64,000 bases of DNA from Roseicella frigidaeris (GTDB lineage Bacteria; Pseudomonadota; Alphaproteobacteria; Acetobacterales; Acetobacteraceae): the NCBI RefSeq assembly GCF_003258945.1, contig NZ_QLIX01000014.1:62001-126000 (forward strand), read 5' to 3'. Below the pieces are notes generated by a model that was not told the origin of the DNA, made no database searches, and worked only from the letters and a program-made list of their open reading frames with translations. Both the position numbers and the translations under genes were made by a program. Below, piece by piece: positions 16,671-34,981 of the stretch. The first letter of the stretch is position 1. Every line of letters starts with the position of its first letter.

Positions 16671-17528
16671 TCACCCCTCCCGCGCCAGCGGGCAGGTGAG
16701 GCAATGCGGCCCGCCGCCGCCGGCGGTGAAGAGCGAGAGCGGCGGGTCCAGCACGGTGAGCCCCTCGGCCCGCAGCGCGGCGTTGAGGTCGCGGCTCTCG
16801 GCGGCGGAGATCACCCGGTCCCCGCCCAGGGCGAGGATGTTGCAGCCGAGGCGCATGGTCTCCCGATAGGGGACGGGCAGGCAGCGGATGCCGCGCGCCC
16901 GGAGCCAGTCCGTGAACGCCTCCGGCAGCGCCTCCAGGCAGGCGGCGGCGAGGCCGGGCGCGGCCATGCAGAACAGCACGTCGAGATGCAGGAAATGCTC
17001 GTCGAAGGGCTCGACCCGCACCTCCCAGCCCTCGGCGCGGAGCCAGGCGGCGAGCTGCTCCGCCCCGGCCAGGTCGGTGCGGCCGCCGCTGGCGCCGATC
17101 ACGGCGAGGCCGGGGCGGAGGATATGGACGTCGCCACCCTCCAGGGTGCCGGCCGAGCTCTTGCGCCAGAAGCGGGCGCCCTGCGCCGCGTGCCAGTCCA
17201 GCAGCGGGGCGTATTCGCCGCGGCGCTGCGGCCGCTCGAGCTGGCAGAGCACCGGCCCGCGATGCGTCACCACCACGCTGTCGCGGGTATAGGCCATGTA
17301 GGGCAGATGCGGCTCGGGCGGCAGGCGGTGCACCCGGGCGCCGGCCTGCTCCAGCGCCGCGACCAGCTCGCCATGCTGCGCCTGCAGTCCCTGCGGGTCC
17401 GGCTGCTGCCCGGACGCCAGGGTGCGGCGGACGATCGTGTTGCTCGGGATCCAGCGATAGTGGTCGGGCGGGCAGACCAGCACCTCGGCGAGGCGCCCGG
17501 TCTCCGAGGCGACGGTCCAGCCTGGCAT
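16671..17528 (-). CDS. Dimethylarginine dimethylaminohydrolase (DDAH)-like amidinotransferase-fold hydrolase
   Basis: A 285-residue enzyme from ATG 17528, selected since the 26 codons upstream look non-coding. Family motifs are in order: substrate loop MAYTRDSVVV, GTLEGGDVHIL, the catalytic histidine context DEHFLHLDVLFCM, and the nucleophile cysteine near the C-terminus in GGGGPHCLTCPL. The fold hydrolyses guanidino groups (dimethylarginine to citrulline and dimethylamine, or arginine to citrulline). The exact substrate is not certain. It is a single gene on the minus strand, divergent from the formate dehydrogenase operon. Confidence 0.85.
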   Translation of the reverse strand: MPGWTVASETGRLAEVLVCPPDHYRWIPSNTIVRRTLASGQQPDPQGLQAQHGELVAALEQAGARVHRLPPEPHLPYMAYTRDSVVVTHRGPVLCQLERPQRRGEYAPLLDWHAAQGARFWRKSSAGTLEGGDVHILRPGLAVIGASGGRTDLAGAEQLAAWLRAEGWEVRVEPFDEHFLHLDVLFCMAAPGLAAACLEALPEAFTDWLRARGIRCLPVPYRETMRLGCNILALGGDRVISAAESRDLNAALRAEGLTVLDPPLSLFTAGGGGPHCLTCPLAREG

Positions 17529-17639
17529 GGCGGCAGGGTGCCGGGGCCGGCGCCCCGCGTCCAGCCCGGCGGGCACCCCATCCAGGGCTTCCGGCTGGCG
17601 GTTCACGAACCCGCCATCCCCTCCTAAAGCCGGAAACCG

Positions 17640-17733
17640 GGCCTTCTACCGCTTGCTAATTTGTCCGTGTTACTACGTACGCCGTCGTACGAAGCCAATC
17701 CCAGTGGCAGTGCCCAGGGGCGGGGAAGAACGC
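17640..17733 (+). promoter_or_regulatory. Probable promoter region of the formate dehydrogenase/sel operon
   Basis: The gap between the divergent DDAH and fdnG genes has a conspicuously AT-richer stretch (about 17645-17700). It includes TTGCTAATTTGTCC and an inverted repeat CGTAC-N6-GTACG at 17676-17691. No consensus -35/-10 pair at 17-base spacing was found, so the exact start site is open. Confidence 0.4.
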
Positions 17734-20700
17734 ATGAACGTTGAAGTATCTCGGCGCCGATTCCTGAAGGGCGCGGGAGCCGGGGTGGCCGGCACCTCGC
17801 TGGCCGCCATGGGCTTCGGCGAGGCCGAGGCGGCGGTCGCCGCCCATGTCCGGCCGATGAAGCTGGCCAACACCACCGAGACCCGCAACACCTGTCCCTA
17901 CTGCTCGGTCGCCTGCGGCGTCATCATCTACGCCAAGGGGGATGTCCGGAAAGGGGAACGGGCCGATATCGTCCATATCGAGGGCGATGCCGACCACCCG
18001 ACGAACCTTGGCACTCTCTGCCCGAAGGGCGCGGCGCTGAAGGATTTCGTGCACGCGCCGACGCGGTTGCAATACCCGATGGTACGACGACCCGGATCGG
18101 ACAAGTTCGAGCGCGTCTCCTGGGATGCGGCGCTCGATCGCATCGCGCGGCTGATGAAGGACGACCGCGACGCAAATTTCCTCGCCTCCAACCAGGAGGG
18201 CACGGCGGTGAACCGGTGGACCACCACCGGCATGCTGGCCGCCTCCGCCACCACCAACGAGACCGCCTGGTGCACCTTCAAGGTCGCCAAGGCTCTCGGG
18301 ATCGTCGGCTTCGACAACCAGGCGCGCGTCTGACACGGCCCCACGGTGTCCAGTTTGGGCCCGAGTTTTGGTCGTGGTGCGATGACGAATGCCTGGACCG
18401 ATATCAAGAACACCGACCTCGTCGTCGTCATGGGCGGCAACGCGGCGGAGGCGCATCCCTGTGGCTTCAAATGGGTCACCGAGGCGAAGGCGCATCGCGG
18501 CGCCAGGCTCATCGTGGTCGATCCCCGCTACACCCGCACCGCCTCGGTCGCGGATTTCTACGCGCCCATCCGCCAGGGGAGCGACATCGCCTTCCTGATG
18601 GGCGTGATCCGCTGGTGCATGGAGAACGACAAGGTCCAGTGGGAGTACACCAAGGCCTTCACCAACGCCGCCTACATCGTCAAGGAGGGCTTCGGCTACC
18701 AGGACGGGCTGTTCACCGGCTACGACCCGGAGAAGCGCGACTACGACCGCACGAGCTGGGACTATGAGATCGACGAGGACGGCTATGCCGTCACCGATCC
18801 GACGCTGCAGCACCCGCGCTGCGTCTGGAACCTGCTGAAGCAGCATGTCGATGTCTACACGCCCGAGATGGTGGAGCGGATCTGCGGCACGCCGAAGGAG
18901 AAATTCCTGAAGGTGGCGCAGATGATCGGCGAGTGCTCCTCGCCGACCAAGACCATGACCTCGATGTACGCGCTCGGCTGGACCCAGCACTCGCATGGGG
19001 CGCAGAACATCCGCGGCATGGCGATGCTGCAGCTCATCCTGGGCAATATCGGCGTGCGCGGCGGCGGCATGAATGCGCTGCGCGGGCATTCGAACATCCA
19101 GGGCCTGACCGATCTCGGCCTGATGTCGCATCTCCTCACCGGCTATCTCAACATGCCGACGGAGAAGGAGACGGATTTCGAGACCTACATGAAGTCGCGG
19201 CAGTTCAAGCCGCTGCGGCCGGGCCAGACCAGCTACTGGCAGAACTACCGGAAGTTCATGGTGAGCTTCCAGAAGGCGATGTGGGGCGACGCCGCCACCG
19301 CCGGGAACGACTGGGCCTATGACTACATCCCGAAGCTCGACGTCCCCTCCTACGATGTCCTGCGCATGTTCGAGCTGATGAATGACGGGCGGGTCAACGG
19401 CTATATCTGCCAGGGCTTCAACCCGGTGCTGGCCTTCCCCAACCGGGGCAAGATCGTCGCCGGCCTGTCGAAGCTGAAATTCCTCGTCACCATGGATCCG
19501 CTGGAGACGGAGACCGCCCGGTTCTGGGAGAACCATGGCGAGTTCAACGACGTCGACACGAAGAGCATCCAGACCGAGGTGATCCAGCTGCCCACCACCT
19601 GCTTCGCGGAGGAGGAGGGCTCGCTCACCAATTCCGGGCGCTGGCTGCAGTGGCACTGGGCGGCCGGCACGCCGCCCGGCGAGGCGCAGCACGACACCTG
19701 GATCATGGCGCAGATCTTCCTGCGCATGCGCGAGCTCTACCGCAAGGAGGGTGGCGCCTTCCCGGACCCGATCCTCAACCTGTCCTGGGAGTATCACGAC
19801 CCGACCGAGCCGGAGCCGGAGGAACTGGCGAAGGAGATCAACGGCCGCGCCCTGCGGGACCTGACCGACCCGAACGACCCCTCGAAGGTCCTCGTGCCGG
19901 CCGGCAAGCAGGTGGTGAATTTCTCGCAGCTCCGCGACGATGGCTCCACCATGAGCGGCTGCTGGATCTACTCCGGCTGCTTCAACGAGGCCGGCAACAA
20001 CATGGCCCGGCGGGACAACCACGACCCGGACGAGACCGGCGCCTATCTCGGCTGGACCTTCGCCTGGCCGCTGAACCGGCGCACCCTCTACAACCGCGCC
20101 TCCTGCGACACGCAGGGCCGGCCCTGGGACCCGTCGCGCAAGCTGCTGGAATGGGACGGCGCGAAATGGACCGGCTACGACGTGCCGGATATCGCGCCCA
20201 ACGCAAAGCCGGAGGAGGTCGGGCCCTTCATCATGAACCAGGAGGGCGTGTCGCGGCTCTTCGCCCGCGGCATGATGCGCGACGGGCCCTTCCCGGCGCA
20301 TATGGAGCCCTTCGAATCGCCGGTGCCGAACGTGTTCAACCCGAAGATGCGCGGCAACCCGGTGGCGCGCATCTTCCAGAACGACGTGGCGCAATTCGGC
20401 ACCTCGGAGGAGTTCCCCTATGCCGCGACCTCCTACCGGCTGACCGAGCACTTCCATTACTGGACCAAGCACAACCGGGTGAATGCGGCGCTGCAGCCGG
20501 AATTCTTCGTCGAGCTGTCGGAGGAGCTGGCGGCGGAGAAGGGCATCACGCCCGGCGGCTGGGTGCGGGTGTGGTCGAAGCGCGGCTCGGTGAAGGCCAA
20601 GGCGGTGGTCACCAAGCGCATCCGACCGCTGCACTGCGACGGGCGGGTGGTGCATGTCATCGGCATCCCGCTGCACTGGGGCTTCGTCGGCGCGGCGAAG

Positions 20701-20823
20701 AAGGGCTTCGGGCCGAATTCGCTCTCGCCCTTCGTCGGCGAGGCGAATATCGAGACGCCGGGCTACAAGGCGTTCCTCGTCAATATCGAGCCGAGCACGG
20801 CGCCGGCGGGGGTGGTGGCATGA
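17734..20823 (+). CDS. fdnG: Selenocysteine-containing formate dehydrogenase alpha subunit (membrane-bound, FdnG type)
   Basis: Reading through the in-frame TGA at 18331-18333 as selenocysteine (residue 200) gives 1029 residues, the normal FdnG length. The context [23 protein letters not shown] is the conserved Sec site of this family. The N-terminus has a Tat signal (SRRRFLK, 6-12) and a [4Fe-4S] site (C54, C57, C61, C96). The rest is the bis-molybdopterin-guanine-dinucleotide domain. The enzyme oxidises formate in the periplasm and passes electrons through the beta and gamma subunits to quinone. Start ATG 17734 follows GGGGAAG. It heads the operon and its stop overlaps the beta gene. Annotated without Sec, it would wrongly appear as two genes (17734-18333 and 18346-20823). 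Confidence 0.96.
18331..18363 (+). promoter_or_regulatory. Selenocysteine UGA codon and bacterial SECIS hairpin
   Basis: Counting U of UGA as 1, the RNA folds as GG (15-16), bulged U17, stem GUCCA/UGGGC, apical loop G23-U24-U25, then CC. The bulged U at 17 and the GU at 23-24 are at exactly the positions needed for SelB binding in the E. coli fdhF element. The stem sequence itself differs, so the structure rather than the sequence is conserved. Confidence 0.9.
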
Positions 20824-21803
20824 TCGACAGCCCGCGCACGGCGGTCAGCAACCCGCCGACGCAGTCGATGATCAGCAACCTGGGGCCGGGCGACCTGGTG
20901 CGCCGCTCGGCGACCGAGAGGCTGCCGCCGCCCGAGCGGCAGCTCACGCCGGTCGCCAAGCTGATCGACGTCTCGAAATGCATCGGCTGCAAGGCCTGCC
21001 AGTCGGCCTGCGTGGAGTGGAACGACACCACGCCGGCGATCGGGGAGAATGTAGGCGTCTACACCAACCCGCACGACCTCACCGAGAACATGTTCACCCT
21101 GATGCGCTTCACCGAATGGGTGAACCCGGAGACCGACAACCTCGAATGGCTCATCCGCAAGGATGGCTGCATGCACTGCGCCGATCCGGGCTGCCTCAAG
21201 GCCTGCCCGGCGCCCGGCGCCATCGTGCAGTATTCGAACGGCATCGTCGATTTCATCCACGAGAACTGCATCGGCTGCGGCTACTGCATCAAGGGATGCC
21301 CCTTCAACATCCCCCGCATCTCCAAGACCGACCGCCGCGCCTACAAATGCACCCTCTGCTCGGACCGCGTCGCGGTGGGCCAGGGCCCGGCCTGCGCCAA
21401 GGCCTGCCCGACCCAGGCGATCGTCTTCGGCACCAAGGAGGACATGAAGAAGCACGCCGCCGGCCGCATCGAGGACCTGAAGTCGCGCGGCTACGACAAG
21501 GCCGGGCTGTATGACCCGCCCGGCGTCGGCGGCACGCATGTGATGTACGTGCTGCACCACAACGACAAGCCCGGCATCTATGCCGACCTGCCGGAGAATC
21601 CGCGCATCTCGCCGCTGGTGCAGAGCTGGAAGGGCGTGACCAAGTATATCGGCCTCGCCGCCATGGGGTTGATGGCGGTGGGCAGCGTCGTCCACGGCGT
21701 GTTCGCCCGGCCCAACCGCGTCTCCGAGGAGGAGGAGCGGCACGCCGAGGACCTGGTCGAGGGGCGGCCGGTGCCGCCGCCGCCACCGGGGCAGCCTCGA
21801 TGA
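20820..21803 (+). CDS. fdxH: Formate dehydrogenase beta subunit, four [4Fe-4S] ferredoxin-like
   Basis: A 327-residue iron-sulfur subunit overlapping fdnG by four bases. Four cysteine clusters are visible: [11 protein letters not shown] (about 54-64), [24 protein letters not shown] and CTLCSDRV...CAKAC. Near the C-terminus one membrane helix ([20 protein letters not shown]) anchors it. It wires electrons from the Mo/Se site of the alpha subunit to the haem b subunit. The N-terminal 45 residues are longer than in E. coli FdnH. The tail is rich in proline and glutamate. Confidence 0.95.
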
Positions 21804-22489
21804 GCGACCATGTCGAGGAGATCCAGCCCGGCGACGCGATCGTCCCGGGCAAGCCGGTCACGGTGAACCGCTACGGGCCGCTCGCGCGCCTCAATCACTG
21901 GGTCACGGCCACCAGCCTGATTCTGCTGGCGATCTCGGGCCTGGCCCTGTTCTGGCCGGGCCTGTTCTTCCTCACCGGCCTGTTCGGCGGCGGCCAGAAC
22001 ACGCGCGCCTTCCATCCCTGGATCGGCGTGCTGCTGTTCGTCAGCTTCTTCGTCTTCTTCTTCCAGCTCTGGCGCGCCAACCTGCCCTCCAGGGTCGACA
22101 TCGTCTGGCTGTCGCGCATCCGCGACGTCCTTGGTGGGCATGAGGAGAGGCTGCCCGAGCTCGGCAAATACAACGCTGGCCAGAAATTCATCTTCTGGGC
22201 GATGACCGGGCTGATCCTGCTGCTGATCGTCAGCGGCATCGGCATCTGGGACCAGTATTTCGCCGGCTATTTCTCGATCACGGCCCGTCGCATCGCCGTG
22301 CTCGTCCATTCCATCGCCGCCGTGCTGATCATCTGCGTCTTCATCCTGCACGTCTACGCCGCCATCTGGACGCGCGGCACGCTGCGGGCGATGACGCGCG
22401 GCACGGTCACCGGCGGCTGGGCCTGGCGGCACCACCGCAAATGGCTGCGCGAGCTGGCGGGCCAGCGGAAGACCAGGCCCGCGAAATAA
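21800..22489 (+). CDS. Formate dehydrogenase gamma subunit, cytochrome b556 type
   Basis: A 229-residue membrane protein, overlapping the beta gene by four bases. Four helices carry the histidines expected for two b haems: [27 protein letters not shown], the [20 protein letters not shown] helix, [24 protein letters not shown] and the [26 protein letters not shown] helix. This matches FdnI/FdoI, which passes electrons from the iron-sulfur subunit to menaquinone or ubiquinone. It completes the structural FDH genes. Confidence 0.95.
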
Positions 22490-22530: not shown

Positions 22531-23448
22531 ATGTCCGCATTCCAAGGCCCGCAGCCCGATCCCGCCGCGATCGGGCGCCTGGCGAAAGCCCCCTTCGCGC
22601 TGCTGCCCGACCCGGCCGCCCTATTCCGGCGGCGCGCCGAGCGCTTCGAGGTGCTGGCGGCGGGGTCCGACCTGGCCCCCTATCTCCGCTTCCTCGCCGG
22701 GCTCTGCGCCCGCCAGCACGCCATTGCCGCCGCCCTGCCGCCGGCCCCGCCGCTCCCCGAGGCCCGGCTCGAGCGTGCCCGGGCCGCCGCCATGCCGCTG
22801 CTCGACCGCCAGGCCATGGCCGATGCGCCGGGTCTGCCGGCGCTGGTCGCGCAGGTGCTGGAGGCGATGGGCGATCTCGCCATGCCGCCGCCGGCGGCCG
22901 AGGCCCTGGCGGCGCTGCGCCTGGCCGAGCCGGCCGAACGGGCGGCGATGTGCCGCAACGTCCTCGCCGATTCCATACCCACCGATGCCCTGCCGGAGCA
23001 TCTCTTCCTCTCCGCGGCGCTGCAGATCGAGGCCGCCCGCCAGGCGGCGGCGCTCGACCCGGCGCGGCTGGTGCCGGTCGGGACGGGGCTCTGCCCGGTC
23101 TGCGGCGGCCCGCCCCTCGCCTCCTGCGTCACCGGCCGGCCGGGCGCCGAGGGCGCGCGCTATGCCGCCTGCGGCTTCTGCGGCACGGACTGGAACGAGG
23201 TGCGCATCAAATGCCTCGCCTGCGGCTCGACCAAGGGCATCGGCTACCGGGCGCCGGAGGACGAGGCGGCGACCATCAAGGCCGAGACCTGCGATGCCTG
23301 CCGGTCCTGGGTGAAGATCCTCTACCAGGACAGGAACCCGGCGCTCGACCCGCTGGCGGATGATGTCGGCAGCCTTGGCCTCGACCTGCTGATGCAGGGC
23401 ACCGAGTATCGCCGCGCCGGCTTCGATCCCTTCCTCATCGGCTATTAG
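22531..23448 (+). CDS. fdhE: Formate dehydrogenase accessory protein FdhE
   Basis: A 305-residue cytoplasmic protein from ATG 22531. The C-terminal half contains the four CxxC metal-binding pairs of FdhE: CPVCGG, CGFCGT, CLACGS and CDACRS, followed by [15 protein letters not shown]. FdhE binds iron and is needed to mature Tat-exported respiratory formate dehydrogenases before export. It lies 41 bases after the cytochrome gene and four bases before selA, inside the same operon. Confidence 0.93.
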
Positions 23449-23452
23449 GGCC

Positions 23453-24850
23453 ATGGTGGAGAAGGCGGCGCTGCGCGCCCTGCCCTCGGTGGACCGCGTC
23501 CTCGGCAGCCCGGCGGCGGCGCCGTTGATCGCGGCGCATGGCCGCGCCGAGGCGACCGCCGCCATCCGCGCCGCGCTGGCCGGGCTGCGCGCCGCGGGCG
23601 GCGCCGAGGCCGCGACCGCCGAGGCCGCGATCCTGGCCGGCGCCGAGGACTGGCTGGCGGCGCGGCAGGCCTCGGGGCTGCGGCCGGTCTTCAACCTCAC
23701 CGGCACGGTGCTGCACACCAATCTCGGCCGCGCCCTGCTGGCCGAGGCGGCGATCGAGGCGGCCACCACCGCCATGCGCGAGGCGATGGCGCTGGAATTC
23801 GACCTCGGCACCGGCCGCCGCGGCGAGCGGGACGAGCATCTGCGCGCGCTCCTCTGCGAGCTGACCGGCGCCGAGGATGCGACGGCGGTCAACAACAACG
23901 CCGCCGCCGTGCTGCTTGCCCTCAACACCCTCGGCGCCGGCCGCGAGGCCGTGGTCTCGCGCGGCGAGCTGATCGAGATCGGCGGCGCCTTCCGCATGCC
24001 GGACATCATGGCGCGCGCCGGCGTCCGGCTGGTCGAGGTCGGCACCACCAACCGCACCCATGCGCGCGACTACGAGGCGGCGCTGGGGCCGGAGACCGGG
24101 CTGATCCTCAAGGTCCACACCTCCAATTACCGGATCGAGGGCTTCACCGCGGCGGTCGGCGGCACCGCCCTCGCCGCCCTCGCCAAACGCGCCGGGGTGC
24201 CGCTGCTGAACGATCTCGGCTCCGGCACGCTGATCGACCTCGCGCGCTACGGGTTGCAGCGCGAGCCGACGGTGCGCGAGGCGGTGGCGGAGGGCGCCGA
24301 TCTCGTCACCTTCTCCGGCGACAAGCTGCTCGGCGGGCCGCAGGCCGGCTTCCTCGTGGGCCGCCGCGACCTGATCGCCGCCATCAACCGCAACCCGATG
24401 AAGCGGGCGCTGCGGCTCGACAAGATCCGCATCGCCGCGCTGGTGGCAACCCTCGGCCTCTACCGCGACCCGGACCGGCTGGCGGCGCGGCTGCCCAGCC
24501 TGCGCCTGCTGACGCGCCCGGCGGCGGAGATCGGCGCCATGGCCGGCCGTCTCGCCCCCGGCCTCGCCGCGCGTCTGCCGCCCGGCTTCGCCGTCGCGCC
24601 CTGCGACTGCCGCAGCCAGATCGGCTCCGGCGCCCTGCCGCTCGAGACCCTGCCGAGTGCCGGGCTGCGGGTGACGGCGCCGCGCGGGCGCGATCTGGAG
24701 GCGCTGGTCGCCGCGCTGCGCGCCCTGCCGCGGCCGGTGATCGGCCGGCTGCAGGATGGGGCGCTGCTGCTCGACCTGCGCTGCCTCGAGGACGAGGCCG
24801 GCTTTGCCGCCAATCTCGCAAGCCTCGCGGTGCCGCATGGGCTGGCTTGA
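23453..24850 (+). CDS. selA: L-seryl-tRNA(Sec) selenium transferase
   Basis: A 465-residue PLP enzyme that converts Ser-tRNA(Sec) to Sec-tRNA(Sec) using selenophosphate. Visible motifs are [32 protein letters not shown], the [12 protein letters not shown] loop and the PLP lysine in [13 protein letters not shown] (K291). Length equals that of E. coli SelA. It starts four bases after fdhE and supplies the charged tRNA for the UGA codon of fdnG in the same operon. Confidence 0.97.
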
Positions 24851-25639
24851 GCGGCTGCGCCGCGTCGCGGCGCCGCGCCGGCCGGCCGAGGACCCGATGG
24901 CGGCGGCGCTCGCCGCCTTCCGCCGCGGCGACCATGCGCAGGCCCTCGCCTTGTGGGAGGCGCCGGCGCGGGCCGGCGATCCGCGCGCCCAGTGCAATAT
25001 CGGCGCCTGCTTCGCCGAGGGGCTCGGCGTGCCGGCGGATGCCGCCCTGGCGCTGCGCTGGCTGACGCCGCCGGCCGAGGCCGGCTACGCGCCGGCGCAG
25101 CGCAACCTCGCCGGGCTGCTGCTGCGCGGCGGGCCGGGGATCGAGACGGATTTCGCCCGCGCCGCCGCGCTCTACCGCCTGGCCGCGGAGGCCGGGGACG
25201 GGCTGGCGCAGGACATGCTGAGCTGGATGCTGCTGGAGGGCGAGGTGATGCCGCCCGATCCCATCGAGGCGCGGCGCTGGGCCGAGGCCGCGGCGGCCCA
25301 GGGCGTCGCCGCCGCCATGACCCGGCTCGGCATGCTGCACCATCATGCCATGGGCGTGCCGCGCGACCCGGCGGCGGCGGTGCGCTGGTGGTGCCAGGCC
25401 GCCGCGCGCGGCGATGCCGATGGCCAGGCCATGCTCGGCGCCGCTCTGCATCTCGGCGCCGGCATCGCGGCGGATCCGGTGGCGGCGCTCGCCTGGCTGC
25501 TGCGGGCCGAGGCGGGCGGCAGCCAGCTCGCCCGGCCCTTCCTCGGCCCCGCCCGCGCGGCGCTCGACGCGGCGGGGCAGGCGGAGGCCGCGGCGTGCGC
25601 GGCGGCGCCGCTGCCCGAGGCAGCGTCGGAGCCGGCGGC

Positions 25640-25643
<4 letters not shown>
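24837..25643 (+). CDS. Sel1-repeat (TPR-like) protein between selA and selB
   Basis: A 268-residue protein from ATG 24837, overlapping the selA end by 14 bases; its own stop overlaps the selB start. It contains about five Sel1-like repeats with the signatures [72 protein letters not shown] and [19 protein letters not shown]. These helical repeats mediate protein contacts. The name Sel1 is unrelated to selenium, but the tight overlaps on both sides imply a role tied to the Sec machinery. No catalytic residues are seen. Confidence 0.88.
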
Positions 25644-27705
<2,062 letters not shown>

Positions 27706-27709
<4 letters not shown>

Positions 27710-28083
27710 GCGCGGCCTGCGAGACCGATTTCGACGATTGGATCACCGCGGGTTTCGCCGCGACCGGTCCCTTCACCCTGCTGATCGTGCTGCTGCGCAT
27801 CACCGAGCACACGGTCGAGCCCCTGCGCGCGGCGCATCTGCATGTGATGGGCGACGAGACCCGCTGGCCAGAGATGGCGGCGCTGCTCGACAAGGCCGGG
27901 GTTGCCTGGTCCGGCGCCGTCTTCTACCGCGCCGGGCGGGAAGGGCTGGTGGAGGATGCGCTCGCCCGGCAGCGCCTGGCGGCCCTGACGCGCCGGCTGC
28001 ACGAGGACCGTTCCCTGGTGGGCGAGGGCGAGTTCTTCAACCGCGACGGCTTGCGGCTGCGGATCGAGGCACGAGACGGCTAG
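27706..28083 (+). CDS. Hypothetical protein linked to selB/selC (125 aa)
   Basis: ATG 27706 overlaps the TGA of the selB read-through frame (ATGA) and begins 14 bases after the end of selC. The ribosome site is weak, so coupling to selB translation is plausible. The protein is soluble, mixed charged, with a hydrophobic segment (GPFTLLIVLLRITEHTVEP) and no cysteine other than C5. No family was recognised. Its stop forms part of the strong terminator that follows, making it the last gene of the fdn-sel operon. A role in selenoprotein synthesis is suggested only by position. Confidence 0.7.
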
Positions 28084-28653: not shown

Positions 28654-29700
28654 TCATGCCACCCGGATGCGCGCCGGCCCTGCCGCGACGCTGCCGATGC
28701 GCCGCGCCGCGGGATAGCCGGCGGCGGCGATGCGCGCCAGCAGCCCCTCCGCCGCCTCCGCGGCGCAGGCGACGAGCAGGCCGCCCGAGGTCTGCGGATC
28801 GGTGAGCAGGGCCCGCTGCCAGTCCTCGCAGCCCGCCGGCAGGTCGACCGCCTCGCCATAGCTCGCCCAATTGCGCTGCGAGGCGCCGGTCACGAAGCCG
28901 GCCTGGGCCAGCGACGCGGCCCGCGGCAGCAGCGGCACCGCCGCGCCCTCGATGACGAGCGTCGCCCCGGCGCCGCGCGCCATCTCCAGCGCATGGCCGA
29001 GCAGGCCGAAGCCGGTCACGTCGGTCATGCCATGCACCGCCTCCGCCCCCGCCAGCTCGGTGCCGATGCGGTTCAGCAGGGTGGTGGAGCGGAGCAGGTC
29101 GGCATAGTCGTCCGCCGCCAGCGCCCCCCGCTTGATGGCGGCGGAATAGATGCCGACGCCGATCCCCTTGGTCAGGAGCAGCGCATCGCCCGGCCGCGCC
29201 CCGGTGTTGCGGCGGATCTGCGCCGGATGGACGAGCCCGATCACCGCCAGCCCGTAGATCGGCTCGGGCGAATCGATGGAATGCCCGCCGGCGACCGGGA
29301 TGCCCGCCTCGGCGCAGATCGCCGCGCCGCCCGCCAGGATACGGCGGATCACCGCCGGCTCCAGCTTGCCGATCGGCATGCCGAGGATCGCCAGCGCCAT
29401 GATCGGCGTGCCGCCCATGGCGTAGATGTCGGAGATGGCGTTGGTGGCGGCGATGCGGCCGAAATCCTCCGGGTCATCGACCATCGGCATGAAGAAATCC
29501 GTGGTGGCGATCACCGCGAGATCCTCCCGCACCTGCCAGACCGCGGCATCGTCGGCGGTCTCGGCCCCGACCAGGAGCTGGCTGAAGCCCCGCATCGCCG
29601 GCTGGTCGGCCAGCAGGCTCTGCAGCACCGCGGGCGCCAGCTTGCAGCCGCAGCCGCCGCCATGGGCAAGCTCGGTCAGGCGGGGGGGCTGGCTCGACAT
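28654..29700 (-). CDS. selD: Selenide, water dikinase
   Basis: A 348-residue enzyme making selenophosphate from selenide and ATP for SelA. The N-terminal loop GGGCGCK has catalytic C17 and K20 at exactly the E. coli numbering; the catalytic residue is cysteine here, not selenocysteine. Other family motifs are [42 protein letters not shown] and [19 protein letters not shown]. It is on the strand opposite the selAB operon but only about 570 bases beyond its terminator, so all Sec genes are clustered. Confidence 0.97.
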
Positions 29701-29748: not shown

Positions 29749-31023
29749 TCAGCCGCCAGCCAGCATCTCGAAGGCGTGGAAGCGCACCGCGCCGTCCGGC
29801 CGAATCTCGGCCAGCCCATCCGCCTCGGCGAAGGGGGTGAGGCGGGCGGAGCCGAAGCGGCGCGGCACCTCCAGCAGCGGCAGGCCCGCCGCCTCGCCCG
29901 CCAGCCGGGCGGGCAGGAATTCGGTGCGCTCCCCGGCCTCCCGGGGCTGCGCCAGACGGGCCGGCTGGCCGAGCAGCGCGGACGGGGCCAGGCCGGCGAT
30001 CCGCTCTACCAGCGGCCGGGCATAGAGCAGCGCCCCGACCAGCGCCGCCACCGGGTTGCCGGCGAGGCCGAGCAGCGGCAGGGCGCCGAGCCGGGCCAGC
30101 AGCAGCGGCTTGCCGGGGCGCTGGGCCAGGGCGAGATGCGCGACATCGCCGCCGAGCGCCCGGATCGCCGGCCCCAGCCGGTCCGCCTCGCTGCCGGCGG
30201 CCGAGCCGGTCGAGACCACGAGGTCGAGGTCGCGCGCCGCCGCCAGGCAGGCGGCCACCGCCGCGTCGTCGTCCCGGGCGATGCCGAGATCCCGCAGCGC
30301 GACGCAGGGATCGGCGAGGATCGCGCGCAGCATCGGGCGGTTGGCATCCGGGATGGTGCCGGCCGGGATGCGGCCATCGGGGCCGATGGCGCCGGGGGGC
30401 AGCAGCTCGCTGCCGGTGGAGAGGATGCCGATCCGCGCCTGCCGCCGCACCACCACCGGCCCGGCGCCGGCGGCCGCGGCCAGGCCGAGGCGCGCCGCGC
30501 CCAGCCGCCGCCCGGCGCGCAGCACCACTGTTCCGGCCGCCGCATCCTCGCCGCGGGGGCGGATATGCTGCCCGGCCGACACCCGGCGGAGCAGCACCAC
30601 CTGCTCCCCCTCCAGCCGGCAGCCCTCCTCGAAGATCACCGCCGCCGTGCCGGGCGGCACCGCGGCGCCGGTCAGCACGCGGGCCGCCTCGCCCGCGGCG
30701 AGCGGCCGGGCATCCGGATGCCCGGGCGGGATCGCGGCGCGGCGGCGGAGCGGGAGGGGCGGCTCCCGGTCCAGCGCCTCGGGGCCGATGGCGAAGCCGT
30801 CCATGGCCGCGGTGTCGAAGGGCGGCATGTCGCGTGCGGCCGGCAGGTCCTCGGCCAGCACCCGTCCTGCCGCCGCCATCAGCGGCAGGGTCTCGTGGCC
30901 CGGGACGGGGGCGGCGAGGGCGAGCACGCGCTCCCGGGCGGCGGCGACGGAGAGGCGGGCGGCGGGCGCCGGGGCGAGGCGGCGCGGGGCCAGCGGCCGG
31001 CCGGCGCCGCCCTCAGCCGGCAT
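29749..31023 (-). CDS. moeA: Molybdopterin molybdenumtransferase
   Basis: A 424-residue MoeA from ATG 31023, overlapping the end of fdsD by 11 bases. Recognisable segments are RDMPPFDTAAMDGFAI, ARVLTGAAVPPGTAAVIF, the MPT-binding IGILSTGSELLPPG and QRPGKPLLLARLG, and LAGNPVAALVGALLYARP. MoeA inserts molybdate into adenylylated molybdopterin, the step before bis-MGD formation needed by both formate dehydrogenases here. Its place at the end of the fds operon couples cofactor supply to enzyme synthesis. The start could alternatively lie upstream, but that region overlaps fdsD. Confidence 0.93.
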   Translation of the reverse strand: MPAEGGAGRPLAPRRLAPAPAARLSVAAARERVLALAAPVPGHETLPLMAAAGRVLAEDLPAARDMPPFDTAAMDGFAIGPEALDREPPLPLRRRAAIPPGHPDARPLAAGEAARVLTGAAVPPGTAAVIFEEGCRLEGEQVVLLRRVSAGQHIRPRGEDAAAGTVVLRAGRRLGAARLGLAAAAGAGPVVVRRQARIGILSTGSELLPPGAIGPDGRIPAGTIPDANRPMLRAILADPCVALRDLGIARDDDAAVAACLAAARDLDLVVSTGSAAGSEADRLGPAIRALGGDVAHLALAQRPGKPLLLARLGALPLLGLAGNPVAALVGALLYARPLVERIAGLAPSALLGQPARLAQPREAGERTEFLPARLAGEAAGLPLLEVPRRFGSARLTPFAEADGLAEIRPDGAVRFHAFEMLAGG

Positions 31024-31297
31024 CGCTCTCCAGCGGCCCGAGCGTCTCGGGTCCCGCCATCTCCCGGTGGATCGGGCTGCCGGCGATGGCGCCGTCCCGC
31101 ATCGCGGCCCGCACCACGGCATCGATGCCCGGCGCGCCGGCGGCGCAGAGACCGGCCAGGGCGCGGCGCATGCCGGGGGTCCAGAAGGCCTGGATATGCT
31201 CGCGCGTCCCGGCCACCGCCTCCGCCTCCGGATAGGGGCGGAAGAAGGTGGCGATCTGGTTGGCCATGCGGATGAGCTTCTCGGGCGTCGCGCTCAT
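31013..31297 (-). CDS. fdsD: Formate dehydrogenase delta subunit
   Basis: A 94-residue protein of the FdsD family: N-terminal LIRMANQIATFFRPYPEAEAV, then IQAFWTPGMRRAL, as in soluble NAD-dependent formate dehydrogenases of Cupriavidus and Rhodobacter. In Rhodobacter FdsABGD this small protein is part of the complex or aids its maturation. It overlaps fdhD by four bases and moeA by 11 bases. Confidence 0.92.
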   Translation of the reverse strand: MSATPEKLIRMANQIATFFRPYPEAEAVAGTREHIQAFWTPGMRRALAGLCAAGAPGIDAVVRAAMRDGAIAGSPIHREMAGPETLGPLESDAG

Positions 31298-32127
31298 GCG
31301 GCGGCGCCTCCGGCCAGCACCCGCTCGGCGCCGTGGAAGGCGGTGACGGCGTCGCGGCGGGCAATGGCGAGCAGGATCATGTCGTGCTGCCGGGCGCGCT
31401 CGAGCGCGAGGGAGGTGGGGGCGGAGATGGCGACGAGGGCACGTGCGCCCATGGCGGCCGCCTTCTCCACCATCTCGAAGGAGCAGCGGCTGGTGACGAT
31501 GACGAAGCCCGGGGCCGCCGGGATGCCGCCGCGCAGCATGGCGCCGGCGAGCTTGTCGAGCGCGTTGTGCCGGCCGACATCCTCGCGCAGCAGCGCCAGC
31601 TCGCCCGCGGCGGTGGCGAAGCCGGCGGCATGCACGCCGCGCGTCGCGTCGCCGAGGGCCTGGCGCGTCTCCAGCGCCGCGAGGGCGCGGCGGAGGGCGG
31701 CGAGGGAGAGCATCGGCGCCGGGCCGGCGGGGGAGGCGGCCTGCGGCAGGTCGTCCAGATCCTCGATGCCGCAGAGGCCGCAGCCGGTGCGCCCGACCAT
31801 GGAGCGGCGCCGGGCCAGATGCGCGTGCAGCCGGGCCGGGACGAGATCGACCTGCAGCCGCAGCCCGCGTTCCTCGGCCGCGACCGAGACGCCGCGGATC
31901 TCGGAGGCCGCGGCGATCACGCCCTCGGTCAGGCTGAAGCCATAGGCGAAATCCTCGAGATCGGCCGGCGTCGCCATCATCACCGCGAAGGGCACGGTGG
32001 CGTAGGTGAGGTTGACCGGCACCTCCTCCGGCACCAGGCGCTGGCCGGGGCTGGGGGCGCCGTCGAAGGGCAGCGTCACCGCCCCGGCCGGGACCGCGCC
32101 CGCCGGAAGGGTGTCACTCAGCGGCAT
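31294..32127 (-). CDS. fdhD: Formate dehydrogenase accessory sulfurtransferase
   Basis: A 277-residue FdhD. The catalytic cysteine pair lies in GRTGCGLCGIEDL (C116, C119), which carries persulfide from IscS to the Mo cofactor. The nucleotide-binding region EDVGRHNALDKLAGAML and the C-terminal SRCSFEMVEKAAAMGA and APTSLALERA stretches are typical. It overlaps the end of fdsA by 14 bases. It probably serves both the Sec and the Cys formate dehydrogenase encoded in this window. Confidence 0.95.
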   Translation of the reverse strand: MPLSDTLPAGAVPAGAVTLPFDGAPSPGQRLVPEEVPVNLTYATVPFAVMMATPADLEDFAYGFSLTEGVIAAASEIRGVSVAAEERGLRLQVDLVPARLHAHLARRRSMVGRTGCGLCGIEDLDDLPQAASPAGPAPMLSLAALRRALAALETRQALGDATRGVHAAGFATAAGELALLREDVGRHNALDKLAGAMLRGGIPAAPGFVIVTSRCSFEMVEKAAAMGARALVAISAPTSLALERARQHDMILLAIARRDAVTAFHGAERVLAGGAAA

Positions 32128-34981
32128 GGGCCGGGGTGGGCGCGGCGCGGCGGGTCAGGGCGGTGTCCTCCTCGAAGAAGCGGGCCTGCCAGTCGGAGGG
32201 CCGGTTGGTCCGCCGCACCTGCACGGCGGTGACCTTGTATTCCGGGCAATTGGTGGCCCAGTCGGAATAGTCGGTCGTGATCACATTGGCCCCGGTCTTG
32301 GCGTGGTGGAAGGTGGTGTAAACCACGCCCGGCTGCACCCGTTCCGTGATCCGCGCCCGCAGGGCGATGTCGCCGGAGCGGCTCTCCACCGCGACCAGGT
32401 CGCCCTCGCGCACCCCGCGCGCCTCGGCATCGAAGGGGTGGATCTCCAGCACGTCCTCCGCATGCCAGCGGCTGTTCTCGGTGCGCCGGGTCTGCGCCCC
32501 GACATTGTACTGCGAGAGGATGCGGCCGGTGGTCAGGATCAGCGGGAAGCGCGGCCCGGTGCGCTCCTCGGTCGGGACGAATTCGGTGATCATGAACTTG
32601 CCCTTGCCGCGGACGAAGCGATCCACATGCATCATCGGCGTGCCCTCGGGCGCATCCGCGTTGCAGGGCCATTGCACCGAGCCAAGGGCCTCGAGCTTCG
32701 CATAGCTGACGCCCGCGAAGCTCGGCGTCAGGGCGGCGATCTCGTCCATGATCTCCGAGGGATGGCCATAGCGCATCGGGTAGCCGAGGGCGTTGGAGAG
32801 CGCCATCGTCACCTCCCAATCGGCCAGGCCGCCCAGCGGTTCCATCACCTTGCGCACGCGGTTGATGCGCCGCTCGGCATTGGTGAAGGTGCCGTCCTTC
32901 TCCAGGAAGGAGGAGCCGGGCAGCAGGACATGCGCGTATTTCGCGGTCTCGTTCAGGAAGATGTCCTGCACGACGAGGCATTCGAGCGCGCGCAGCCCGG
33001 CGGTGACGTGCTGGGTGTCGGGGTCGGACTGGGCGATGTCCTCGCCCTGGACATAGAGGCCCTTGAAGCGGCCCTCCACCGCCTCGTCCAGCATGTTCGG
33101 GATGCGCAGCCCCGGCTCGGCCTCCAGCGTCACGCCCCAGAGCGATTCGAAGGCCTCCCGCGTCGCGTCGTCCGCCACGTGCCGGTAGCCCGGCAGCTCG
33201 TGCGGGAAGGAGCCCATGTCGCAGGAGCCCTGGACGTTGTTCTGCCCGCGCAGGGGATTCACCCCCGTCCCCTCGCGGCCGATATTGCCGGTGGCCATGG
33301 CGAGGTTGGCCATCGCCATCACCATGGTCGAGCCCTGCGAGTGCTCGGTGACGCCGAGGCCGTAATAGATGGCGGCGCGGCCGCCCGTGGCGTAGAGCCG
33401 CGCCGCGGCGCGCAGCTCGCCGGCCGGCACGCCGGTGATCGGCTCGACCGCCTCCGGGGCATGGCGCGGATCGGCGATGAAGCGGGCCCAGACCTCGAAA
33501 TCGCCGAGCTCGCAGCGCTCGCGCACATAGGCCTCGTTCACCAGCCCCTCGGTTACGATGACATGCGCCATGGCATTGACCACGGCGACGTTGCTGCCGG
33601 GGCGGAGTTGCAGGTGGTGCGCGGCGCGGATATGCGGCGAGCGCACCAGGTCGATCCGCCGCGGGTCGATGACGACGAGCTTCGCCCCCGCCCGCAGCCG
33701 CCGCTTCATGCGCGAGCCGAAGACCGGGTGGCCGTCGGTCGGGTTGGCGCCGATGACCAGCACCACATCGGCCTTGTCCACCGAACGGAAATCCTGCGTC
33801 CCGGCCGAGGTGCCGAGCGTCGCCTTCAGCCCGTAGCCGGTGGGCGAGTGGCAGACCCGGGCGCAGGTGTCGACGTTGTTGTTGCCGAAGCCGGCGCGGA
33901 CCAGCTTCTGCACCAGGTAGGTCTCCTCGTTGGTGCAGCGCGAGGAGGTGATGCCGCCGACCGCGTCCCGGCCATGGCGCGCCTGGATGCGGCGGAACTC
34001 CCCGGCGGCATGGGCGATCGCCTCCTCCCAGGAGACCTCGCGCCAGGGATCGGTGATCCGCGCGCGGATCATCGGGCGGGTGATGCGGTCCTTGTGGTGC
34101 GCGTAGCCCCAGGCGAAGCGGCCCTTGACGCAGGAATGCCCCTCATTCGCGCGGCCAGCCTTCCAGGGCACCATGCGGATGACGGTGTCGCCCTGCATCT
34201 CCGCCTTGAAGGAGCAGCCGACGCCGCAATAGGCGCAGGTGGTGACCACCGAATGCTCCGGCTGGCCCTGCTCGATCACCGTGTTCTCGATCAGTGTCGC
34301 GGTCGGGCAGGCCTGCACGCAGGCGCCGCAGGAGACGCAGTCCGAGGCGAAGAAATCGGTGCCGCCGGCGGAGACCCGGCTGTCGAAGCCGCGGCCCTCG
34401 ATGGTGAGGGCGAAGGTGCCCTGCACCTCCTCGCAGGCCCGGACGCAGCGGTTGCAGACGATGCATTTCGCCGGGTCGTAGGTGAAATAGGGGTTGGTCG
34501 TGTCCTTCGGCAGGGCGAGCGGCGAGTCCGGCCGCACATGGTTGGCGCCCTCCTGGCCGTAGCGCACCTCGCGCAGCCCGACCTGGCCGGCGGTGTCCTG
34601 CAGCTCGCAATCGCCGTTGGCGGCGCAGGTGAGGCAGTCGAGCGGGTGGTCGGAGATGTAGAGCTCCATCACCCCGCGCCGCAGCCGGGAGAGCCGCTCG
34701 CCCTGGGTGCGCACCACCATGCCGGCCTCGGCCGGGGTGGTGCAGGAGGCCGGGGTGCCGCGCCGCCCCTCGATCTCGACGAGGCACATGCGGCAGGAGC
34801 CGAAGGGCTCCAGCGAATCCGTGGCGCAGAGCTTCGGGATCTTCGTGCCCAACCGCATCGCCGCCGCCATCACCGAGGTGCCGGCGGGCACGGTGACGGC
34901 CTGGCCGTCGATGGTCAGGGTGACGCTCTCCGCCGCGCTGCGCAGCGGGGTGCCGTAATCGGTCTCGCGGATCAGGCCCAT
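32114..34981 (-). CDS. fdsA: NAD-dependent formate dehydrogenase alpha subunit (Cys type)
   Basis: A 955-residue cytoplasmic subunit. The N-terminus has a [2Fe-2S] site (C52, C63, C66, C80), then a His/Cys [4Fe-4S] site (DHPLDCLTCAANGDC) and two ferredoxin clusters (CIVCNRCVRAC, CVSCGACVQAC). The Mo domain starts at TTCAYCGVGCSFKAE. The metal ligand is Cys377 in CARVCHSPTGYG, where fdnG has selenocysteine. It oxidises formate to CO2 and sends electrons through FdsB/FdsG to NAD+. Ten bases separate it from fdsB, and fdhD overlaps its end. It is the structural core of an operon with six genes. Confidence 0.96.
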   Translation of the reverse strand: MGLIRETDYGTPLRSAAESVTLTIDGQAVTVPAGTSVMAAAMRLGTKIPKLCATDSLEPFGSCRMCLVEIEGRRGTPASCTTPAEAGMVVRTQGERLSRLRRGVMELYISDHPLDCLTCAANGDCELQDTAGQVGLREVRYGQEGANHVRPDSPLALPKDTTNPYFTYDPAKCIVCNRCVRACEEVQGTFALTIEGRGFDSRVSAGGTDFFASDCVSCGACVQACPTATLIENTVIEQGQPEHSVVTTCAYCGVGCSFKAEMQGDTVIRMVPWKAGRANEGHSCVKGRFAWGYAHHKDRITRPMIRARITDPWREVSWEEAIAHAAGEFRRIQARHGRDAVGGITSSRCTNEETYLVQKLVRAGFGNNNVDTCARVCHSPTGYGLKATLGTSAGTQDFRSVDKADVVLVIGANPTDGHPVFGSRMKRRLRAGAKLVVIDPRRIDLVRSPHIRAAHHLQLRPGSNVAVVNAMAHVIVTEGLVNEAYVRERCELGDFEVWARFIADPRHAPEAVEPITGVPAGELRAAARLYATGGRAAIYYGLGVTEHSQGSTMVMAMANLAMATGNIGREGTGVNPLRGQNNVQGSCDMGSFPHELPGYRHVADDATREAFESLWGVTLEAEPGLRIPNMLDEAVEGRFKGLYVQGEDIAQSDPDTQHVTAGLRALECLVVQDIFLNETAKYAHVLLPGSSFLEKDGTFTNAERRINRVRKVMEPLGGLADWEVTMALSNALGYPMRYGHPSEIMDEIAALTPSFAGVSYAKLEALGSVQWPCNADAPEGTPMMHVDRFVRGKGKFMITEFVPTEERTGPRFPLILTTGRILSQYNVGAQTRRTENSRWHAEDVLEIHPFDAEARGVREGDLVAVESRSGDIALRARITERVQPGVVYTTFHHAKTGANVITTDYSDWATNCPEYKVTAVQVRRTNRPSDWQARFFEEDTALTRRAAPTPAHAAE

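Follow-up and report, generated by a model that had tools for sequence, protein, structure and literature searches.

The plus-strand gene at 17734-20823 of the window (the whole 64,000-nucleotide stretch of Roseicella frigidaeris DNA that was analysed) is predicted from its sequence to encode the catalytic subunit of an N/O-type formate dehydrogenase, a membrane-bound respiratory enzyme, in which an in-frame UGA would be read as selenocysteine (Sec) by means of a SECIS element. We put the probability of this reading at about 97%. Ordinary ORF calling finds two plus-strand ORFs in the same frame, 17527-18333 and 18346-20823, which an earlier note on this DNA had joined through the TGA at 18331-18333; its coordinates, the ARV-U-HGPTV context and the assignment to residue 200 were all right. 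From the ATG at 17734 to the TGA at 20821-20823, the sole internal stop is TGA 18331-18333 (codon 200), and the frame is otherwise open over 1029 residues before processing. The read-through protein reaches 1413.4 bits against TIGR01553 (formate dehydrogenase-N alpha), for which the cut-off is 814.2, and comparison with its relatives and with E. coli FdnG (PDB 1kqf_A) reveals homology that runs unbroken across the TGA. Codon 200 is aligned to residue X of 1kqf_A (ARV-X-HGPTV), which we take to be the metal-binding Sec. FdnG is the best solved relative by sequence (residues 4-1020 similar, 1402 bits); Sec has the same position in both enzymes and the beta and gamma genes follow alpha here too. 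E. coli FdoG is presumably a further close known system. The earlier note had named the gene fdnG; the window sequence does not separate the N from the O type and does not discriminate fdnG from fdoG.

The start of the gene is likely to be 17734, which gives the protein a putative twin-arginine leader. The N-terminus scores 22.1 bits against the TAT profile PF10518, just below the cut-off of 22.7, and the twin-arginine motif itself is visible. A scan of 17500-17760 found no promoter-like site and one terminator-like site (17638-17655; mean of 0.2 in shuffles), which is uninformative.

The signal that would recode this UGA lies within the coding sequence. The Rfam model SECIS_3 (RF01989) matches plus-strand positions 18328-18386 over its full length (element positions 1-59 of 59) and with no notable difference, at 75 bits (gathering score 63) and with an E-value of 7.5e-16; the same model also matches E. 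coli, which served as a control. At gathering thresholds, SECIS_3 and tRNA-Sec are the only two Rfam matches in the whole window. SelB is known from work on E. coli fdhF to require U17 and G23-U24. The hairpin with a bulged U17 and G23-U24 in its loop that had been described earlier is recovered in the minimum free energy (MFE) fold of 18331-18376 (-19 kcal/mol), where both features are present and the apical loop consists of G23-U24-U25. The rules for bacterial SECIS elements given in the available passages of a 2026 review (PMC13188914) are a loop of 3-9 nt with a G in the first two positions, an upper stem of 4-16 bp, a distance of 16-37 nt between UGA and loop, and an MFE of -7.5 or lower. 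The present element agrees with these published rules, its GUU loop lying 19 nt past the UGA and its energy being -19 kcal/mol; the upper stem has eight pairs around the bulged U17 in the fold and seven in the Rfam structure. The folding energy as such was dropped as proof of a SECIS: its z value is -1.81, and since 10 of 200 dinucleotide shuffles fold equally well or better, it is by itself weak evidence.

Covariation was studied in 40 SECIS sequences (38 distinct), made up of the window and 39 of 80 named loci picked for variety. SECIS cells are paired in 92.8% of cases, versus 47.9 and 49.7% when the structure is slid by one column. All cells of the inner helix are paired (100%), and compensatory changes occur at three of its seven pairs. 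The covariation score is 0.177 versus 0.087 in shuffles, and three of five covariation measures exceed the shuffles, in each case with 0 of 500 shuffles as high, these shuffles ignoring relatedness. The other two measures (pairs changed on both sides and further pair types) fall within the shuffle range (189 and 234 of 500 shuffles reach the observed values). In the outer helix just 87.1% of cells are paired and pair 15-42 fails in 18 of the 38 distinct rows, which leaves firm support for the upper stem only.

The element appears to stand alone in its genome. No other SECIS_3 match was found in the 5.8 Mb at E 0.001 (150 of 3418 first-look candidates scored), and a model built from the 40 sequences of the window and its 39 relatives (R1) produced one convincing match, this same element (80.5 bits), the next four candidates having E-values of 0.45-8.3 (150 of 8701 candidates scored). 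PF00384 has 11 matches in this genome, among which only the alpha gene has an internal TGA; both the R1 and the PF00384 searches are blind to selenoproteins with another SECIS or another fold. If UGA were a sense codon throughout the genome instead of a Sec codon, internal TGAs would be expected in many genes; among the 11 PF00384 matches the only one stands at the SECIS site. The alpha gene, a Sel1-repeat gene and selB moreover end in TGA codons that overlap the next start, and a dedicated tRNA-Sec is present. With no point in its favour, a genome-wide reassignment of UGA is extremely improbable.

The distribution of the codon was studied in a pool of homologues chosen by their similarity to the alpha enzyme or its family. 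The pool contains the window, 80 named loci (the best 80 of at least 594 confirmed), 29 of 30 family loci and 58 of 61 listed phylum rows. The window's own copy (L149) was dropped from the family search, as were rows over the cut-off without a locus, and the phylum rows left out were the own copy, one already in the pool (G066) and a partial one (G444). The resulting 168 rows reduce to 166 distinct homologues, of which 155 have TGA at the Sec site, seven TGC and four TGT; no other codon occurs. An earlier count over 112 places, repeat fetches included, had given 108 TGA and four TGC, one of the latter belonging to a paralogue of 26% identity. The loop G23-U24 is present in 155/155 TGA rows versus 1/11 Cys rows, and all inner-stem pairs form in 154/155 versus 1/11; the exception among the TGA rows is a distant enzyme of 37% identity (L170), where an inner-stem cell is unpaired. 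U17 is found in 155/155 TGA rows and 10/11 Cys rows. The alpha enzyme groups with Roseomonas-type bacteria, and its best named match among those listed is Pseudoroseomonas ludipueritiae (89% identity over its best segment). A TGA at codon 200 could also arise from a sequencing error or from a nonsense mutation in a decaying gene, a possibility that is formally open for any one assembly and for which nothing was found. The same TGA in 155 of 166 distinct homologues, including that of a same-genus genome (G024), in practice refutes it, and the covarying hairpin directly after the TGA and the otherwise open frame of 1029 residues also speak against it; it is thus very improbable. The claim that a selenoprotein gene is split here by a UGA is borne out, as a prediction, by the TIGR01553 score, the SECIS_3 match and the conservation of the TGA in relatives, and codon 200 is almost certainly read as Sec and not as a stop.

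The presence of the enzyme was also compared with that of tRNA-Sec in 200 sampled genomes of the family. At E 0.001 the tRNA-Sec model has matches in 200/200 family genomes and 14/14 controls, which we think reflects other tRNAs scoring near 50 bits. A line at 60 bits was therefore adopted; it was set after viewing the scores, and 65 genomes lie over it. The alpha enzyme is over its cut-off in 43 of the 200 genomes (own included), 36 of them with one TGA and seven without. A tRNA-Sec of at least 60 bits is present in 35 of the 36 genomes with a TGA enzyme versus one of the seven with an uninterrupted one, a comparison whose Fisher test ignores relatedness; the TGA-enzyme genome lacking such a tRNA (G139) is 72% complete. 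About 14 of the 36 TGA enzymes score just 910-980 bits, which is where a more distant type with TGA also scores. A second, distant type of TGA formate dehydrogenase (approximately 38-41% identity), with a different hairpin sequence, was observed in the same family (L136, L138, L139 and L140). In another genome (G167, whose tRNA-Sec scores 64.9 bits), a Cys enzyme (L163/L137) has a disrupted stem but retains the G-U loop, and it possibly represents a recent change from Sec to Cys.

The four sel genes that the earlier note had placed in the window are all found there by profile matches above the respective cut-offs and, for the tRNA, by ARAGORN and Rfam. The plus strand carries selA, for selenocysteine synthase (23453-24850; TIGR00474, 565.2 bits), selB, for the Sec-specific elongation factor (25640-27709; TIGR00475, 385.6 bits, the match extending to residue 630 of 689), and selC, for tRNA-Sec (27596-27687, or 27595-27691 according to ARAGORN; 79.6 bits against the Rfam tRNA-Sec model). 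On the minus strand, selD encodes selenide water dikinase (28654-29700; NF002098, 494.4 bits). The selC gene lies wholly within the selB frame, so that it encodes a C-terminal extension of SelB, and the selB stop overlaps the start of the next ORF (27706). Among 81 stretches (the window and the 80 named loci, which are the best 80 of at least 594 confirmed, many of the stretches being incomplete), selC is nested in selB in 39, partly overlapping in three and downstream in 14; eight have selB without a tRNA-Sec in the stretch, 15 have no selB motif and two have a tRNA-Sec but no selB motif.

The nesting of selC in selB is a published trait. In the available passages of Mukai 2021 (PMC8124441), it is described for the alphaproteobacterial fdoGHI-selABCD island, where selC is wholly in selB and the stop overlaps the next start, both of which the window shares; the same passages offer the hypothesis that tRNA processing represses SelB. 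They also report highly degenerate remnants in Roseomonas gilardii and R. mucosa, whereas the organism of the window has an intact nested tRNA-Sec. In our data the R. mucosa locus (L003) has no tRNA-Sec within its stretch.

The neighbouring genes complete the region. The iron-sulfur beta subunit (20820-21803, plus strand; TIGR01582, 508.1 bits when scanned from 20835, above cut-off) has a start that overlaps the alpha stop (ATGA), and it is followed on the same strand by the cytochrome b gamma subunit (21800-22489; TIGR01583, 180.4 bits, cut-off 115.85) and by the accessory protein FdhE (22531-23448, start inferred; TIGR01562, 327.9 bits when scanned from 22441, above cut-off). A Sel1-repeat protein is encoded on the plus strand between selA and selB (24756-25643). 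Its listed ORF overlaps selA, leaving the true start uncertain, and its end overlaps the selB start. By position it is probably ORF1 of Mukai 2021, and matches to it occur in 27 of 141 records, a count that includes the window, its own copy and repeat fetches. The start that overlaps the selB stop belongs to a 125-aa protein (27706-28083, plus strand) without a Pfam or NCBIfam match, probably ORF2 of Mukai 2021, again by position, with relatives in 34 of the 141 records, counted in the same way. Its structure model is confident (pLDDT 89.8), and a comparison of this model with the PDB gave no match at E 0.001 or lower, the best being 0.15. Adjoining selD on the minus strand are genes for a MoeA-type molybdopterin molybdotransferase (29749-31122; three Pfam domains above cut-off, the NCBIfam MoeA models matching below theirs) and for FdhD, the sulfurtransferase for formate dehydrogenase (31294-32127). 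The window also contains a Cys formate dehydrogenase alpha paralogue (32114-34981, minus strand; TIGR01591, 937 bits), with an ARV-C-HSPT motif whose Cys aligns with Sec 200, so that formate dehydrogenases of both the Sec and the Cys form are encoded here. We infer that the paralogue is NAD-linked from the adjoining NuoF-like gene, which scores 411.6 bits, below the model cut-off of 558.65.

Established knowledge of the pathway suggests how these components would work together. SelA would make Sec-tRNA using selenophosphate from SelD, and SelB would carry the Sec-tRNA and bind the SECIS loop, so that the UGA would be read as Sec and not as a stop. In the bis-MGD cofactor, Mo would be bound by the selenium of Sec. 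The mature alpha protein would be exported by the Tat pathway, and electrons would flow from formate through alpha to the beta and gamma subunits and then to quinone. Since the SECIS lies in coding sequence, its inner stem may also restrict the protein, so that a change at residue 206 goes with one at residue 209.

SECIS column 22 corresponds to the first position of codon 206, and column 32 to the second position of codon 209. The 22-32 pair is U-G with Ser206/Gly209, the state of the window enzyme, G-C with Ala/Ala, the state of E. coli FdnG (1kqf), and C-G with Pro/Gly. The 155 Sec rows comprise 98 Ala/Ala, 55 Ser/Gly, two Pro/Gly and no Ala/Gly, versus five Ala/Gly, four Ala/Ala and two Ser/Gly in the 11 Cys rows; the difference in Ala/Gly is significant by Fisher's test (p 5e-7, relatedness ignored), and no mismatched 22-32 intermediate exists among the 155 Sec enzymes. 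Pair states were placed on a FastTree phylogeny from which codons 195-215 were excluded, and the best tree requires at least 14 changes of state among the Sec rows. On its starred branches, both bases change together in 11/11 independent pairs (sign test, p 0.001), and at the residue level 206 and 209 change together in 13/13 independent pairs (p 0.0002). In a smaller tree, even if only well-supported branches are counted, the U-G label has to change 10 times and the G-C label 13 times. Cys has about two origins on the larger tree, so that the Cys rows represent few independent events. The most telling of them is L163, although it sits on a long branch and its placement is unsure: this Cys enzyme lies among Sec enzymes and keeps Ser207, with Ala206/Gly209 and a G-G mismatch as the RNA pair. 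These patterns suggest that the SECIS stem probably forces residues 206 and 209 to change only together, and that the link would dissolve, with Ala/Gly appearing, once Sec is replaced by Cys.

Two other causes could couple the residues without repeated selection on the RNA stem, namely protein packing and the swapping of the hairpin as a block by recombination. Residues 206 and 209 are three apart and could touch, the approximately two origins of Cys offer few independent tests, and the absence of Ser207 in 10 of the 11 Cys enzymes could relax the packing. Block transfer, for its part, would move both bases together and mimic independent changes, so that switches could be overcounted. Against packing, Ala206/Gly209 is tolerated in five of the 11 Cys enzymes, including L163 with its Ser207 and G-G mismatch, and the three states of the Sec enzymes are those that give a G-C, U-G or C-G pair. 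Packing or recombination seems an unlikely source of the coupling, and constraint by the RNA stem is the preferred explanation. No report of this coupling was found in the literature searched, consisting mainly of titles and abstract openings with few subscription papers, and the available passages of PMC13188914 hold nothing on it.

The alpha gene is a standard case of the known Sec-formate dehydrogenase and ordinary biology, a routine find in which plain ORF calling has split one more enzyme of this kind. The formate dehydrogenase alpha subunit is the most widely distributed bacterial selenoprotein family, and often the sole one, according to the passages available of the 2026 review (PMC13188914). 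What is new here seems to be one more sequence of a known kind together with a small evolutionary extra at residues 206 and 209. These coupled residues amount to a natural experiment, in which paired amino-acid changes seem to have been imposed repeatedly by an intragenic recoding signal. If the RNA is indeed the cause, protein-only models of the region could mistake an RNA constraint for a protein constraint.
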